A DNA stretch of 46,920 bases from a virus. Position 1 is the stretch's first letter; each line of letters starts with the position of its first letter. Under the pieces are notes generated by a model, which was not told the DNA's origin, did no database searches, and saw only the letters and a list, made by a program, of their open reading frames with translations. A program made the translations under genes and the position numbers. The DNA lies in the IMG/VR virus record IMGVR_UViG_3300005962_000016, positions 1-46,920 of that record. One strand, written 5' to 3'. Positions 1,217 to 46,920 of this stretch are shown in pieces.

Positions 1217-1573
1217 TACCTTTGTCCCTGCCTAGTGCCTTTATGTGTGATGTTTTTTAATTGGCTTGCGCATCGCCCATGCCCCACGCGCTCCACCTGC
1301 CCTATCCCTGCTAAGTAAACGCTCGTATCACATGCCAATTTTCAACCACCTGAATATAATCTAAGCAAGATCTTTTCTTATTTCTCTTAGATTGCCACTT
1401 TCTGAAATGAAGAGAGAATAGAACTAGTTAGTTAGGGAATAAGAGTGATTAGAGTTTTCAGATTGTTTTCAGATTTAGGACCTTTCTTTTCAATTGGAAT
1501 TCATGTAGAGAGAGTATTTTAGAAAAGGAATAGCTTTGGAAAAAAGGAATTATCTTGGTTGAAAACGCATTTA
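1217..1573. other. Non-coding spacer with a short GC-rich insert
   Basis: No gene is supported here. Bases about 1262-1312 are far richer in G+C than everything around them. They are enclosed by an inverted repeat, AATTGGC at 1259-1265 and GCCAATT at 1334-1340. The patch begins exactly where the alpha-galactosidase pseudogene loses its stop codon, so it may mark a rearrangement breakpoint or a small structured RNA or insertion. The remainder, 1341-1573, is AT-rich with no recognisable signal. Confidence 0.4.
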
Positions 1574-3064: not shown

Positions 3065-3430
3065 TTATTTCACAGTTATTGGTATATATGATATAACCCC
3101 AAATTCAACCATTCCTGCGTTTATTAGATCCTGCAATTCTTGGCTGTTTAGGACTTTCCCTTCCTCAAGTCTTTGTTTTAGTTTTATTACCAGTGCTACA
3201 TCTTTTTCTTGGAACTCAATTGTAATTCTGTTTACCGGCACTTCGTAATTAAGAATATCAGTTAGAAGTTTTGCTGTTGCCTCGTGCCCGATTGCAGAAA
3301 CTACTTCATAGCCTTCGCTTCTTAGCTCGTTAAAAGTTTCTATAAACTTTTGCTTATCTACTATCTCAAACGCATAAATTCCTTCATTGGGCATAATTGG
3401 TGCATTCAACAGGTATAGTTTGCTTCCCAT
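3065..3430 (-). CDS. acrIII-1: AcrIII-1-like viral ring nuclease (DUF1874 / STIV B116 family), type III anti-CRISPR
   Basis: 121 aa, the usual length of the family. DUF1874 proteins of archaeal viruses and some bacteriophages bind and rapidly cleave cyclic tetra-adenylate, the second messenger of type III CRISPR, and so switch off Csm6/Csx1-type effectors. Visible hallmarks: N-terminal YLLNA (Asn9), the SAIGHEAT block with catalytic-type His49, and the C-terminal QRLEEGKVL block with Arg87 and Glu89/90. Each aligns with the corresponding block of STIV B116 and SIRV gp29 as I remember them. The start at ATG 3428-3430 follows AAAGGGGTGATAG and overlaps the upstream stop (TAATG). It sits in a cluster of tiny early genes, as expected for a counter-defence protein needed soon after entry. 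A cellular-type Crn2 ring nuclease is the alternative, but no Cas genes are nearby. Confidence 0.88.
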   Translation of the reverse strand: MGSKLYLLNAPIMPNEGIYAFEIVDKQKFIETFNELRSEGYEVVSAIGHEATAKLLTDILNYEVPVNRITIEFQEKDVALVIKLKQRLEEGKVLNSQELQDLINAGMVEFGVISYIPITVK

Positions 3431-5027: not shown

Positions 5028-5264
5028 TTATTTTGTCGGAGTTTTCTTTTTGCTTGAAAAATTTGCTATGACGTATTCTCTTAGTGCACTGGCTGGTATT
5101 CTCCATCTGTTGCCTACCTTGACTGCCTTTAGCTCTCCTCTATTGATTAGGATAGTGATATATCTTGAATTAAATTTTAATATGTTAGCTACTTCATCAG
5201 TGGTTAAGAACTCTTCTTTTAAAATATCCTCATTAACAACGTTCTCTAATTCTCTCTTTTCCAT
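5028..5264 (-). CDS. Excisionase/MerR-type helix-turn-helix protein (HTH_17), 78 aa
   Basis: Residues about 19-65 carry the classic pattern of small excisionase-like DNA-binding proteins: FLTTDEVANIL, then the recognition helix, then a KVGNRWRIP wing and an ALREYV end. Such proteins bind DNA as architectural factors or regulators. Start at ATG 5262-5264 after GGGAGGTGAGAG, inside the 3' end of the upstream gene. No integrase is present, so a role in excision is unlikely. Transcription control, for example of the boxes at 2.6, 42.3 and 43.7 kb, is more plausible. A paralogous domain ends the gene at 5568-6191. Confidence 0.75.
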   Translation of the reverse strand: MEKRELENVVNEDILKEEFLTTDEVANILKFNSRYITILINRGELKAVKVGNRWRIPASALREYVIANFSSKKKTPTK

Positions 5265-5608
5265 TCTCTCACCTCCCACTTCTGAATTATATTTTTTTGA
5301 AGCTTGTAGGCTTTCGCCTCGCTAATTAACATCTTTGAGCAAACTCCTTTCATTGTTAGACCTTCCCAGAAACGATACCTTATAAAATCCTGCTCCTCTT
5401 TTGTCAGGGTGGCATACCATAGAAAAAAATCATCAATCTGTTTTGTCAGCTCGATATACTCGCTAAGCAACTCGCCAAGCTCATCATCGCAAGAGAAATC
5501 TTTGAGAAATACAATTCTCTCTTGGAGATTTTTAGCCCTCCTATAGAGAGACAGGAATTGAGCTAGATCATTCAGACTGTTTTTGATCTTGTTCCTCATA
5601 GACATCAT
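5246..5608 (-). CDS. Sigma region 4 / ArpU-like phage transcriptional regulator
   Basis: 120 aa. The C-terminal part reads LTKEEQDFIRYRFWEGLTMKG followed by an SEAKAYKLQK helix. This matches the layout of sigma-70 region 4-like phage regulators (ArpU/RinA/DUF1492 types), which activate late genes. The N-terminal half is helical. The exact start is uncertain: ATG 5606-5608 has a weak AAGGGC ahead, and a second in-frame ATG lies three codons on. Overlaps both neighbours, so it is translated as part of the operon. It is a candidate activator of the late promoter near 42.33 kb, by inference. Confidence 0.6.
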   Translation of the reverse strand: MMSMRNKIKNSLNDLAQFLSLYRRAKNLQERIVFLKDFSCDDELGELLSEYIELTKQIDDFFLWYATLTKEEQDFIRYRFWEGLTMKGVCSKMLISEAKAYKLQKNIIQKWEVREWKREN

Positions 5609-6191
5609 GCCCTTGTTTCAATTTTAAAACTTCACTTTCTGGAATTCTCCACTTAGCCCCTAACTTAACCGCTTTTATCTGACCAGTCCTGCACCAGTAA
5701 ACCACGGTGTCAGGAGGCAATTGGAAGATATCTGCCACATATTCTGGAGAATAAAAGTCCTCGGCAACTCTTTCGTAGGGGACTAAATTAGGGGCAGGTA
5801 AAGGCTTCCACTCTTCAGAAATACCTACAATAGACATAATCTTTTCCAGCTTTAATCTTATCTCATATCTCAACTCCTTGACAAGGTCTGGATCAAGATC
5901 TAAATTCTGACTGAGAAATTTAATTGCCTCTTGGTAGGATCCGCCCCCCTTCTTTTCAAAAATATATAGCCCAAGATTTGCAACCGCCTGAACTTCATTT
6001 GAAAATTTCTGCTTCCTAATGTTGTCTCTCCAGCCCTCTTCATCAACCCCAAATTCAAAGTTTATCGTAGCAAAGCCGGGATAATACTCCTTGTAGGGGA
6101 AATCTATAACCTGTAAAAGCTCGGGTATAGCTCGCACTTTTAGAGCTTCTCTTAATCTTTTTCTCGCATAACCCTTATAGACTAATATCAT
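5568..6191 (-). CDS. Hypothetical protein with C-terminal excisionase-type HTH, 207 aa
   Basis: Start at ATG 6189-6191 after GGGAGGTGATATC. Residues about 155-200 repeat the HTH_17 pattern of the neighbouring 78-aa protein (YVADIF, CRTGQIKAVKLGAKWRIP). The N-terminal 150 residues are unrecognised and include a Gly/Pro-poor helical core. It probably binds DNA through the C-terminal domain. Two such domains within 1.2 kb suggest duplication and divergence of one ancestral DNA-binding gene. Confidence 0.7.
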   Translation of the reverse strand: MILVYKGYARKRLREALKVRAIPELLQVIDFPYKEYYPGFATINFEFGVDEEGWRDNIRKQKFSNEVQAVANLGLYIFEKKGGGSYQEAIKFLSQNLDLDPDLVKELRYEIRLKLEKIMSIVGISEEWKPLPAPNLVPYERVAEDFYSPEYVADIFQLPPDTVVYWCRTGQIKAVKLGAKWRIPESEVLKLKQGHDVYEEQDQKQSE

Positions 6192-6195
6192 GATA

Positions 6196-6924
6196 TCACC
6201 TCCCATCATTTTCTTTTTGGGATATTATATAATATCTCCATTTATTTTTCAAGTCATTTTTTGAGCAAAAAGATCTAAAACTACAATACTTACATTCCCA
6301 TTCAAAACGAGGAAATCTCTTATAAATACCTTCCTCAAACTCATAAAGATCATACCAATCTCTTTCCACAATGTCTACCCACCTTCTGGCATCTATCTCA
6401 AACTCTTTCATTGAAAGATCATCTTTAGAAATATAGAGCAATCTTACACTGTCTGCTCTTACAAAATAAGCATCAATTAGCATTGCATAGTAAGAGACAA
6501 GCTGAAATATATGAAAAACACTAACTCCGCTGATCGTTGGGAACTTGACAGAATTAACAGTTTTAAAATCATAAAGTATTAATTTATCGCCATCTTGCAC
6601 AAGAGCATCAAGATGCCCTATTCTCTTATCGTCCTCAAGCTCCAGCTCCTTGAAGACTAATAATTTATGTTTTTCAAGAAAGTTCTGCAGATATATGTGA
6701 ATTATGTTCCCTATCTCAAAAATACGAAGAGCCCTCGGAGAGGGCGGATCCGAGGGCATTAAACCTCTTTTAAAAAGCACTCTCTTTAAAAAGCACTGCC
6801 CTGCCAAGGAGACACGGAACTTTTGAGGATGCTTATCTTGCTCATCAATTAGATCTTGCTCTAAGAGAGAGATTATAAAACTATCTTGTTCGGGGGTCTC
6901 AATCAAATAATTATTCCCGCTCAT
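6196..6924 (-). CDS. Cas4/RecB-like PD-(D/E)XK nuclease with iron-sulfur cysteines
   Basis: 242 aa. Catalytic signature of the PD-(D/E)XK fold: GHLDAL with His104 and Asp106, then LYDFKT with Asp119 and Lys121. Cys44 near the N-terminus and Cys211, Cys214 and Cys220 near the C-terminus are positioned like the four cluster ligands of Cas4/AddB nucleases. Such enzymes resect DNA ends. In phages they act in recombination and replication and can interfere with CRISPR adaptation. It lies among phage recombination and replication genes with overlaps on both sides. A Cas4 role in acquiring the spacers at 44.6 kb is possible but not shown, since Cas1 and Cas2 are absent. Confidence 0.8.
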   Translation of the reverse strand: MSGNNYLIETPEQDSFIISLLEQDLIDEQDKHPQKFRVSLAGQCFLKRVLFKRGLMPSDPPSPRALRIFEIGNIIHIYLQNFLEKHKLLVFKELELEDDKRIGHLDALVQDGDKLILYDFKTVNSVKFPTISGVSVFHIFQLVSYYAMLIDAYFVRADSVRLLYISKDDLSMKEFEIDARRWVDIVERDWYDLYEFEEGIYKRFPRFEWECKYCSFRSFCSKNDLKNKWRYYIISQKENDGR

Positions 6925-14655: not shown

Positions 14656-15342
14656 TTAGAACTCTAAATAAAGTTTTTTTTGAAATCTTTTCTCTAAGGC
14701 TTCAGTGCTATAGTCTAATCTAAATTGTTGCCCTACTTTTTTCTCCATTTCTTTTATTTGTTCCCATAATTCAGGATAATAATGATATATTGCTTCAAGC
14801 TTTTTTATGCTCACAAGGGGACAACAATAACATGAGCTTCTTGTAATCTTTTCGTAAAGTCCCCCGAAGTTGAATCCCCTTGAATAACAAAAAGCAAGTG
14901 CTTCTTTTTCCGTAATACGCCACTCTACAAGGGGATATTTGTAGTGGGGTTTAGGTTTAGCACGTTTGGCTTCATCATATGCAATACCTACATATATGAT
15001 GTAGTCATCTTTTAGGCTTTTAATGAATTTTTGTGTTAAACTACTTTTAAATGAGGTGCACCATCTCTTTTTCATAGTAGGAAATCCATATCCTTTTTTC
15101 CCCTTCTGGAGACCTTTCTTGCGTATGTATTCAGAAAAATAATAATCGTAATCAAAAGATAGTTTTGTTATTTTGAGGGGAGAGATGTATCTCTCTAACT
15201 TGCCAATATGTTCATATATTTCAGGAAATTCTTTTGTGGTGTCTACAAATATGACATAATCTATAGGTAATCCTCTTTCAATCATCATTAATAGCATGGC
15301 AGTTGAATCTTTGCCCCCAGAAAGAGAAACTATATGTTTCAT
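14656..15342 (-). CDS. PAPS-reductase/DndC-like family protein (adenine nucleotide alpha hydrolase fold)
   Basis: 228 aa. The ATP pyrophosphatase P-loop SGGKDS is at residues 8-13, followed by FVDTTKEFPE. A RWCT cysteine and a SSCYCCPL cluster (residues about 165-175) could hold an iron-sulfur cluster, as in DndC and related sulfur-transfer proteins. Family members activate or transfer sulfur, or act in nucleotide or DNA modification. Phage versions are common but their substrate is mostly unknown. It is the last gene of the late operon, just after a metallophosphoesterase. No other Dnd protein is present, so full phosphorothioation is unlikely to be encoded here. Confidence 0.82.
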   Translation of the reverse strand: MKHIVSLSGGKDSTAMLLMMIERGLPIDYVIFVDTTKEFPEIYEHIGKLERYISPLKITKLSFDYDYYFSEYIRKKGLQKGKKGYGFPTMKKRWCTSFKSSLTQKFIKSLKDDYIIYVGIAYDEAKRAKPKPHYKYPLVEWRITEKEALAFCYSRGFNFGGLYEKITRSSCYCCPLVSIKKLEAIYHYYPELWEQIKEMEKKVGQQFRLDYSTEALEKRFQKKLYLEF

Positions 15343-36332: not shown

Positions 36333-36903
36333 AGCGCCACTCACCTAATGTTTTGAAGTAAATAGCTAATATCTTGTCTGCTCTATCTGAATATATTCTT
36401 GCTTTATCCCTGTAATTGACTACATCCACACTCATGGTTGGGTCTGAGGACTGGGCATAGTAGTTCGCCAGCTCCTCAAGACCCAGATAGCCAGCATACA
36501 CACCTATTAAATAGTTGTGCTTTTCACTTAAAGGTAAAGTGACAGATGGGATAGTAGAGTATCTTGCCCACATATTTAAGTAATCAGATGGGATCAATTG
36601 GTGGCCAAGATATGGTTGAAAGACCCTCAAATACCTTACCCCATCTGCTATGACGATGCTCCATCTATACAATCTCCCGACACTATCCCATACACTCTCT
36701 ATAAAGGAGATACCATCTGCCCAGCCAGATGGCAGATAAAATGCATAGACACTGGGCTCATAGGTAAGCTGCTCTACCTTGAAAAGAGGGTAGTCCACAA
36801 GCACACGCTCTTTTGCTACTTCTATTAGTCTTTCTTTTTGAGCGGCTGTTAGTATTCCTGCAGTATCTTGCAATATGTCATTCAGGATATCCAGAGGGTT
36901 CAT
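36322..36903 (-). CDS. Head-tail connector protein, 193 aa
   Basis: Located directly after the capsid gene and the 55-aa protein, where HK97 gp6-like adaptors are found. Tyr/Trp-rich helical protein. ATG 36901-36903 overlaps the upstream stop (ATGA), so it depends on coupling. The sequence has no clear motif, so the call rests on order and size. Confidence 0.6.
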   Translation of the reverse strand: MNPLDILNDILQDTAGILTAAQKERLIEVAKERVLVDYPLFKVEQLTYEPSVYAFYLPSGWADGISFIESVWDSVGRLYRWSIVIADGVRYLRVFQPYLGHQLIPSDYLNMWARYSTIPSVTLPLSEKHNYLIGVYAGYLGLEELANYYAQSSDPTMSVDVVNYRDKARIYSDRADKILAIYFKTLGEWRYGI

Positions 36904-43628: not shown

Positions 43629-43657
43629 GTTATATCATATTCTTTTCCCTTTGTCAA
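43629..43657 (-). promoter_or_regulatory. Sigma-A-type promoter of the 43.5 kb gene pair
   Basis: Minus TTGACA (43652-43657), 17-base spacer, TATAAC (43629-43634). The conserved box at 43667 stands 9 bases upstream, as at 2.6 kb. Confidence 0.8.
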
Positions 43658-43666
43658 TATTTTGCC

Positions 43667-43685
43667 CCAATATAGATTTTGCCTA
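43667..43685. promoter_or_regulatory. Shared upstream box, copy at 43.7 kb
   Basis: CCAATATAGATTTTGCCTA on the plus strand. It lies between the minus-strand promoter and the solitary CRISPR repeat. Overlaps a possible plus-strand promoter (TTGCCC or TTTGCC, then TATATT at 43684-43689). A protein bound here would control both the gene pair and the repeat RNA. Confidence 0.6.
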
Positions 43686-43692
43686 TATTCAT

Positions 43693-43722
43693 GTTTGTAG
43701 TGTACCTATAAGGGATTGAAAC
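43693..43722 (+). CRISPR. Solitary CRISPR repeat
   Basis: A 30-base repeat starting GTTTGTAG and ending GGGATTGAAAC. It matches the repeats of the array at 44595 except T instead of C at position 9. It stands alone: no second repeat follows at spacer distance, and a terminator comes 29 bases later. ATTGAAAC ends are typical of type I-B/III arrays of thermophiles. Confidence 0.85.
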
Positions 43723-43751
43723 CAAAATATATTTGGATCTATAGAGGAAAG

Positions 43752-43782
43752 CGGGGACTTCTAAGGTCCCCGTTATTTTTTT
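43752..43782 (+). terminator. Intrinsic terminator after the solitary repeat
   Basis: CGGGGAC (43752-43758) pairs with GTCCCCG (43766-43772), followed by TTATTTTTTT. Confidence 0.88.
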
Positions 43783-43887: not shown

Positions 43888-44577
43888 ATGAAAATAAGAA
43901 CGAAAGATGGTGCAATTATAACTTATCAAGTGGAGGAGGCCAAAGATGGGGAAATGTGGTTCAACTACCTCGGAGAAGAAAATATCGTAGCTTTAGACGA
44001 AGCAACCTCAATAGTAATGAAGAAGAACGCCAAACTGTATATATTGCAGATTAGCGATATAGATTATTTCGATGAAAAAGAAAAAGAGATAGTGGAAGTA
44101 TACGAAGTAGATAAATACGGAAATTTAAGGACAACCAAGATGGGAATTCCTTTATTGTGGTTGCAAGATCCAGAGAAATTCAGGGCAGAAGTGCTTTATA
44201 GAGAGGAAAAAAGAGGAGAAAAGATTCAGGAAGAACAAGCTTGGGCAGAGATCGGAAAAAAATGGGAAATAGGAAAGGCGTATTATAACGTAGAACAATT
44301 TAATAAAACTAGTCTAGGTTGGGCTATTATTAGATACAACATAGAAAGTTTTGTGAGAGAGGGGAAAAGATATAGAGTAGTAATCTTGCATGATTATAGG
44401 ACCACCAGGGGAAATCACACTACAAGCTTTGTTATTTGGGAAGAACCTTTGCCACAACAACTTACGCTACAAGTGCCCAAACAATATATGGGATTAATAA
44501 TCGGGAAAAATGGCAGTAATATTAAAGCAATACAACAAAAATATGGCATAAAGATTATTTTGCAAGCGCAGGGGTAG
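43888..44577 (+). CDS. KH-domain RNA-binding protein, 229 aa
   Basis: Start at ATG 43888-43890 after GGAGGTGGAAAAG. Residues about 190-229 form a compact KH domain with the GxxG loop GKNG (206-209) within GLIIGKNGSNIKAIQQ. The N-terminal 180 residues are beta-rich and charged and unrecognised. KH domains bind single-stranded RNA or DNA. It lies between the solitary repeat and the mini-array and reads into the latter without a terminator. A role in repeat RNA binding or array transcription is tempting but unproven. Confidence 0.78.
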   Translation: MKIRTKDGAIITYQVEEAKDGEMWFNYLGEENIVALDEATSIVMKKNAKLYILQISDIDYFDEKEKEIVEVYEVDKYGNLRTTKMGIPLLWLQDPEKFRAEVLYREEKRGEKIQEEQAWAEIGKKWEIGKAYYNVEQFNKTSLGWAIIRYNIESFVREGKRYRVVILHDYRTTRGNHTTSFVIWEEPLPQQLTLQVPKQYMGLIIGKNGSNIKAIQQKYGIKIILQAQG

Positions 44578-44594
44578 GGAAACCTACCCCTAGC

Positions 44595-44746
44595 GTTTGT
44601 AGCGTACCTATAAGGGATTGAAACTATAGTCCTCTTCTCTTTCCACTCCGTCTTTTTCTTGTTTGTAGCGTACCTATAAGGGATTGAAACCAGAGAAGGT
44701 GAATTTGTATACTGCAAAAATTTTGGTTTGTAGCGTACCTATAAGG
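44595..44746 (+). CRISPR. Mini-CRISPR array: three repeats, two spacers
   Basis: Two exact 30-base repeats at 44595-44624 and 44661-44690 (GTTTGTAGCG... ending ATTGAAAC). A third, partial repeat at 44726-44746 keeps only the first 21 bases, the usual decayed terminal repeat. Spacers are 36 bases (44625-44660) and 35 bases (44691-44725). No cas genes are nearby, so it would depend on host Cas proteins. A hairpin (GGGGTAGG/CCTACCCC) formed by the end of the KH gene precedes it, with no leader seen. I found no match to either spacer within the window. Confidence 0.85.
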
Positions 44747-44862
44747 AATAGGAGCAAGTTTCTTCCTTATGATCCTAATATAATAAAGAAAAGAGTTAAA
44801 TCTTAAAGTAGAAATAAGAAACCTTTATCTTAACCCTTTAACTCAAGGTAAAAAGTGGTGGT

Positions 44863-45114
44863 GTAGGGAATATATTTATTTTCCTCACAGAATCTTCTTT
44901 AACAGTAGAAATAGATGAAGGATTGGAAAATATTATCATATATATTCCTGAGAAAGCAGTATTGGATTTACGGACAGAATCAGGAATAGGAAAATTTTCT
45001 ATAGAATCTAATGTTTCTTTATTTTAGGAAGAAACAAAGGAAAAAGTTATTCACTAAAGATTTAAGGCAGGAATTGGGAATATATTCATAAAAGCAAGTA
45101 GTGAAATAATTTAA
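44863..45114 (+). pseudogene. Fragment of a DUF4097-like beta-repeat protein
   Basis: An 84-codon stretch in one frame with two internal stops. It reads NIFIFLTESSLTVEIDEG, VLDLRTESGIGKF and GIGNIFIKASS, like the repeated 'toast-rack' strands of DUF4097 or LiaF-type surface proteins. There is no start. It is a decayed host-like gene; its 3' end overlaps the amidotransferase end. Confidence 0.45.
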
Positions 45115-45754: not shown

Positions 45755-45840
45755 AGTAAGTAATTATATCACACAGGTCCCTTGAATAGACTTCTTTAAA
45801 ATTGGTAAATTAAAGATAAAAACAAAAAAGAAGTAGAATT

Positions 45841-46920
45841 ATGCCTATCAAATTTGATGAAAAACAAAAATCTTTCACAATACTGCAAAAGACTCAAGGT
45901 ACATAATAAAAATTCTCAAAGATAAATATCTTAGACATAATTATTGGGGAAAAAGAATTAGTAATTCAGATTTTTCTGATGCCCTTCTTGTATCTCCTTT
46001 TGGGGCTAATCCAGATCCTAATGACAAAACATATACATTAGACTCTTTACCTCAAAATATCCTGCATATGAAAGATCAGATTTTAGACATCCTGCATATC
46101 AAAAGAACAAGAGGATAGATCAAGAATTACTGATTCAAGATTTAAATCCTTTAAAATATATAATAGGAAGCCAAAACTTGATAGACTTCCAGCTACTTAT
46201 GTTGAAGATGATAAAGAGACTCAAACTCTTGAAATTGAGCTTTTTGATGAACTTATTAATCTTAAAGTTGTCTTTTTTATACTGCATATAAAGATTATAA
46301 TGTAATTACTCGAAATGAAAAATTAGTTAATTTAGGTAACCAAAAGCTAAAGATCTTGAGAGCTTTAAACATGACAGTAGACTTTTGCACAGACAATTTA
46401 ATATCTTCATATTTGGGAACCTTTGGCAAGAGAAAGGTTTATAGAAAGAAAACCTTTAGCTCATGGATTACAAATTATCGAAAGCATAAGAGGAGAAAAT
46501 TCTCATCAACATAATCCCTTTTTTGCTCTCATCCTAAAGGATGCCAGTGAAAAATATGGAGAGGTTTATGAGTTTAGTCTTGTTTATAATGGAAATTTTG
46601 ACATACTTATAAAAGTGGATAAATTTAATAATATTAGAGTTTCTATAGGAATAAATCACTTTGATTTACGTGGATATTAAAACCTAATAAAAGCTTCCAG
46701 ACTCCAGAGGTAGTTATGACTTATTCAGACAAAGGCTCAGGTGAGATGTATAAAACCCATCACAGAGTTTATAGAAAAAGACTTTACAGAGGAGAATAAA
46801 GAGATAGAAGAAGAACTATTCTCATAAATACATGGAAAGCTACTTATTTTGATGTTAATGAAGAAAAACTTTTAAATTTAACAAAGGAAGCAAAGGAATT
46901 TGGAATAGACCTTTTTGTTC
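45841..46920 (+). pseudogene. Decayed GH36 alpha-galactosidase, N-terminal part
   Basis: Begins at ATG 45841 (MPIKFDEKQKSF). It shows N-terminal beta-sandwich blocks in shifting frames: HNYWGKRIS near 45940-45960, LLVSPFGANPDPND near 45985-46025, RERFIERKPLAHG near 46425-46460, and the junction into the catalytic barrel (ILINTWKATYFDV) at about 46815-46850. Several frameshifts and stops lie between. Continues at base 1. Together the two parts span a full-length gene of about 2.3 kb in which every domain can still be traced. Confidence 0.85.
46800..46920. repeat. Terminal direct repeat, right copy
   Basis: Identical to bases 1-121. Removing one copy gives a circle of about 46,799 bp in which the alpha-galactosidase remnant is continuous. 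Confidence 0.9.

Follow-up and report, generated by a model that had tools for sequence, protein, structure and literature searches.

CRISPR arrays of one or two spacers have been described before in phages and prophages (Faure et al., 2019). As summarised in PMC6858448, PMC7099407 and PMC8616872, these mini-arrays have host-type repeats, a truncated last repeat, no cas genes and no host-type leader. Recombination with host arrays was proposed as their source and as the way by which leaderless phages acquire spacers (PMC6858448, PMC7099407). The array described here is similar in all these features, including the probable source, but differs from the mini-arrays in those summaries in that no target was found for its spacers and host chromosomal DNA is fused within the last repeat. 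The portogloboviruses of Saccharolobus, SPV1 and SPV2, also carry a two-spacer array with repeats identical to those of the host and no cas genes. However, their arrays have host-like leaders and spacers directed against each other, whereas here there is no leader and no target was found (PMC6858448). Stand-alone repeats occur in some archaeal viruses (PMC6858448), and several solitary repeat units have been shown to act as RNA anti-CRISPRs; Racr candidates often adjoin acr genes, and a non-targeting crRNA also lowered interference (PMC10651486). Finally, Varble (2019), as described in PMC8616872, reported a CRISPR-linked recombination by which adjoining host DNA moved into phage particles. 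That route, in the account given there, uses the homology between spacer and target, whereas here the junction is found at a repeat, and the host DNA forms a fixed part of the genome of the phage.

A preliminary description of this DNA had considered such an array unusual on a bacterial phage. This was overstated, since many phages and prophages carry leaderless mini-arrays and solitary repeats (PMC6858448, PMC11656645, PMC8616872). Its comparison with the mini-arrays of archaeal viruses is sound for the phage-borne location and the host-type repeats, and fails for the host leader that the archaeal-virus arrays carry (PMC6858448). All the parts are of known kinds; the novelty lies in the host group, in their combination and in a mini-array that joins host chromosome inside a repeat. 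We found no paper on phages of Dictyoglomota.

The phage genome and its host

The window, that is, the whole stretch of 46,920 nucleotides analysed, is a complete circular phage genome. The phage is tailed, comes from a hot spring and has heat-loving, Dictyoglomus-like bacteria of the Dictyoglomota as hosts. The ends of the record overlap exactly by 121 bp, giving a closed circle of 46,799 bp, and there are genes for terminase, portal, prohead protease, HK97-type capsid, tail and lysis-type proteins. A circular phage genome with capsid, portal and terminase genes makes chromosomal contamination unlikely. The array repeat is letter for letter that of arrays in a Dictyoglomaceae genome and in further genomes placed in the same phylum. 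Directly upstream of one array bearing this repeat (L005) are the subtype I-B genes cas7-cas5-cas3-cas4-cas1-cas2, and III-A and III-B Cas10 genes adjoin arrays in L058 and L063. Besides, of the 37 positions of a phage protospacer at 36435-36471 (+), 34 are matched by a spacer from the Dictyoglomaceae MAG RSWP16. The shared repeat together with this match indicates that the phage infects, or has infected, Dictyoglomota.

Four related viral contigs were found (L044 to L047). The nearest relative that reaches the array region is L044, which spans the terminase region and extends past the position of the array. Irregular runs of short GTGGAAAACT-like repeats are present in apparently non-coding DNA of both phages, at 2727-2885 of the window and at ~1440-1610 and 2430-2500 of L044. 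Two excisionase-like DNA-binding proteins are coded at 5028-5279 and 5568-6209 (-), and no integrase was seen among the scanned proteins. The protein at 14656-15342 (-) is PAPS-reductase-like and matches SspD/DndC/BrxP models.

The array and its junction with host chromosomal DNA

The array lies on the plus strand and has two perfect, identical copies of the 30-nt repeat GTTTGTAGCGTACCTATAAGGGATTGAAAC (44595-44624 and 44661-44690), followed by spacers of 36 nt (44625-44660) and 35 nt (44691-44725), the lengths given in the preliminary description. None of 100 shuffled sequences had repeat matches like these, which rules out a chance origin, and Rfam assigned the repeat copies to CRISPR-DR2 with a score above the gathering cut-off. 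The two-spacer mini-CRISPR reported at this position is therefore real, with its spacers set between near-identical repeats.

The third repeat (44726-44749 with its junction) had been described as decayed. It is indeed partial, but rather than decayed it is cut off: its first 21 nt, GTTTGTAGCGTACCTATAAGG (44726-44746), match, and from ~44750 the sequence is homologous to the interior of a DUF4097 gene. Ordinary point decay is ruled out by this switch of homology to a host gene. Truncation by itself is not special, since host arrays may likewise end in truncated repeats, as L055 does.

Homology to the Dictyoglomota chromosome runs from ~44750 through the end of the record to ~1166-1242, about 3.3 kb in all. 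This segment contains a decayed fragment of the DUF4097 gene (44750-45111, +), a peptidase C26 gene (45086-45754, -) with an intact reading frame between two pseudogenes, and a pseudogene of a GH36 alpha-galactosidase (+) that begins at 45827-46920 and continues over the circle join at 1-1166. The codon alignment of the latter gave 7 stops at aligned codons and 8 indels. In the genome G006 the genes for C26 peptidase and GH36 lie side by side and in the same order as in the phage. At 0.29 the GC content of the host segment is below that of the phage (0.37) and of the KH region to the left of the array (0.36), and L044 is without this segment. The phage GH36 sequence is 70-73% identical to each reference genome, which is about the distance between the more distant references, so that the donor was probably an unsampled species. 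Just after the pseudogene, the sequence at 1153-1242 also resembles repeated host sequence, with six matching places in genome G001 and a further two, for part of the stretch, in G004.

The metagenomic nature of the record and the presence of both kinds of DNA could suggest that phage and host DNA were wrongly joined, through a chimeric assembly or chromosomal contamination. Two independent false joins would be needed for this. Moreover, the GH36 homology is unbroken across the join, which supports the closure of the circle and, with the exact 121-bp overlap, places the host segment inside it, and a repeat of 30 bp is probably too short to confuse an assembler at a word length of 121 bp. We regard such an artefact as very improbable. 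The preliminary description would have taken flanking sequence matching a host CRISPR locus as a sign of contamination. The right flank is in fact host chromosomal, but it lies within the phage circle and corresponds to no CRISPR locus in the seven Dictyoglomota genomes; contamination by a host CRISPR locus is ruled out by circularity and synteny.

In those seven genomes no CRISPR repeats were found near the DUF4097, C26 or GH36 genes. As no sampled host has an array beside these genes, the evidence for the route of capture is indirect. Given that host arrays may end in truncated repeats, there are two possible routes: the end of a donor array was already beside these genes and both were captured together, or the join was made in the phage.

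The solitary repeat, the KH-protein gene and the ring nuclease

A further copy of the repeat, missed by the preliminary description, is located upstream at 43693-43722 (+). It is identical at 29 of 30 positions (one mismatch), and lies 870 bp from the nearest other repeat, with none within 100 bp. A weak promoter-like site, TTGTCA-16-TAGATT (43651-43678, +; 9/12), ends 15 bp upstream of it; such sites are frequent in AT-rich DNA, and the 10 found are barely over the background of 6.3 +/- 2.5 expected. Downstream there is a strong intrinsic terminator (43750-43782, +; z -3.6 for 43723-43782). The predicted RNA would be of ~95 nt, the repeat plus ~27 nt between promoter-like site and terminator. 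This layout resembles that of solitary repeat units and Racr candidates, with a full-length solitary repeat, a promoter-like site just upstream and an anti-CRISPR gene in the region (PMC10651486). The promoter call is weak; beyond the Racr features, our locus has the terminator just downstream and a mini-array 870 bp away.

Neither a full solitary repeat nor an array was found in the related phages. The nearest relative, L044, has only an exact copy of a 14-nt 3' part of the repeat, TAAGGGATTGAAAC, at 1378-1391 (-) near a terminator-like hairpin, a match not expected by chance (200 shuffles). The DNA around it does not align with the region of the phage solitary repeat, so that homology of the two sites is only suggestive; this L044 region was also considered as a homologue of the KH gene described below and discarded, there being no homology. 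A 16-nt 3' part of the repeat is present in 30 other viral contigs, among which clear arrays are found only in L087 and L092, with slightly different repeats.

Directly upstream of the array, an ORF of 229 aa (43888-44577, +) codes for a protein with a C-terminal KH RNA-binding domain. The hairpin between this ORF and the array (~44570-44591) has no U-run, which makes transcription read-through from the KH gene into the array plausible. The KH protein could bind repeat RNA. No homologues of it were found in the viral contigs, the phage collection or the seven host genomes, and its structure prediction was unusable (pLDDT 41).

The anti-CRISPR gene of the region is at 3065-3430 (-) and codes for a ring nuclease of the AcrIII-1/DUF1874 family. 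The protein matches PF08960 (DUF1874) with 93 bits (E 1e-26) and the solved structures of the AcrIII-1 family (6scf, 2x4i), and the catalytic histidine, H49, is conserved. It falls at the position of the histidine replaced by alanine in 6scf and, in an alignment counted by hand, at that of H495 of Csx1-Crn2, whose mutation abolishes activity. In family and catalytic residue it is thus like the viral ring nuclease AcrIII-1 (PMC7293037), with the difference that here it is carried by a Dictyoglomota phage. We predict that it is an anti-type III CRISPR protein. It was not found in the seven host genomes, and within the phage collection it is most closely related to proteins of archaeal viruses and a Hydrogenobaculum phage. 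Discounting the host insert, the gene lies ~2.9 kb from the solitary repeat.

Leader, spacers and possible roles of the locus

Eight host arrays have a conserved leader in common; neither the phage array nor the solitary repeat has it upstream. The phage array has no host-like leader directly upstream of the kind found in portogloboviruses, and adaptation at this array is unlikely for lack of it. In lacking a leader the array is like the phage mini-arrays of the literature, which are proposed to derive from recombination with those of the host (PMC6858448, PMC7099407). The statement that there are no cas genes was borne out for the 20 window proteins scanned against PADLOC, none of which was a Cas effector or adaptation protein, the only related one being a phage-type Cas4-like exonuclease.

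For neither spacer was a convincing protospacer found in phage records, plasmids, related contigs, the seven host genomes or IMG/VR seed scans. The best full-length matches, 26/36 and 26/35, were at or near the level of shuffled spacers. Seed matches in viral contigs extended only to chance level, the matches in the seven host genomes had three mismatches and were equalled by reversed controls, and the four related phage contigs gave nothing. The search against phage and plasmid sequence that the preliminary description had proposed gave a best match of 27 nt (E 0.01), to a human-gut phage. These negatives are weak evidence, because the seed scans depend on a 16-nt exact match and Dictyoglomota phages are few in the collections.

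The preliminary description had supposed that the array uses host Cas proteins to exclude rivals. The first part is a fair inference from the host-type repeats and the absence of Cas effector and adaptation genes in the scanned set, while the targeting of competing phages or plasmids is left unsupported by the searches. Under this explanation the two spacers would guide host Cas effectors against competing phages or plasmids during co-infection, as in the Saccharolobus portogloboviruses and as has been suggested for the mini-arrays of phages. The size of the array, the length of the spacers and the host-identical repeats fit, and in most viral mini-arrays the spacers match related viruses (PMC8616872, PMC6858448), but the spacer matches near shuffled level and the missing host leader speak against it. 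We consider exclusion of rivals doubtful, the absence of targets neither demonstrating nor excluding it.

A different possibility is that the end of an array came along with host chromosome, through recombination or an aberrant transduction event, and has no activity. The array has decaying host genes directly next to it and terminates at a junction, it has neither a leader nor spacer targets, and recombination between phage and CRISPR locus that mobilises adjoining DNA has been reported (Varble 2019, as described in PMC8616872). However, both repeats are perfect beside decayed genes. If repeats and host genes had all decayed together at 5-8% neutral change (our own estimate, based on the stops and on the surplus of divergence at second codon positions), the 60 nt of repeats would stay unchanged with a probability of 0.01-0.05. 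This hints weakly at constraint or recent renewal, and the argument is weak because the codon alignment gives just 7 stops in GH36; the host genes may also have been decaying already in the donor, ahead of their capture. Selection around CRISPR in this phage is indicated by the separate solitary-repeat unit, which has a terminator, and by the AcrIII-1 gene, and this too counts against an inactive remnant. We judge it unlikely that the array is inert.

Our preferred explanation, held with slightly less than even confidence, is that of a host-derived leaderless mini-array, probably acquired via repeat recombination, within a counter-CRISPR region supplying host Cas proteins with repeat RNAs. It is supported by the repeat identity with host arrays, the RSWP16 spacer, the circularity, the junction in the third repeat, the GC contrast, the absence of a leader, the solitary repeat with its terminator, and AcrIII-1, and more weakly by the perfect repeats next to pseudogenes. 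Against it stand the promoter-like sites at little more than background, the related phages, in which neither a complete solitary repeat nor an array was found, the sampled hosts, which have no array next to these genes, and the spacers, for which no target was found. Recombination between a repeat resident in the phage and one of a host array would have brought in the leader-distal end of the array, and the adjoining host chromosome (DUF4097, C26, GH36) would have entered together with it or afterwards, part of it having since decayed. The array would be transcribed by run-on from the upstream KH-protein gene. After cleavage at the repeats by host Cas6, the RNAs would be taken up by host Cas proteins of type I-B and/or III. 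As a Racr-like decoy, the short RNA of the solitary repeat may occupy Cas6/Cas7, to which the crRNAs of the array may add targeting of unseen rivals or extra decoy load, if they do anything at all. The AcrIII-1 enzyme of the phage would clear away cA4, the alarm signal of type III systems.

We also put forward, as a tentative and somewhat unlikely proposal, that solitary phage repeats are landing sites for recombination with host arrays, by which array ends and neighbouring chromosomal genes are captured in one step. If this is true, the genome would be a direct footprint of the recombinational route of spacer acquisition in leaderless phages, in a region with an RNA decoy, a mini-array and AcrIII-1. 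A phage array whose last repeat breaks off and gives way to host chromosome is the kind of trace expected under the recombination model. The presence of a solitary repeat and AcrIII-1 in one phage makes the decoy and targeting roles testable within a single system. Combined, these parts suggest how such viruses acquire and reuse parts of host immunity.
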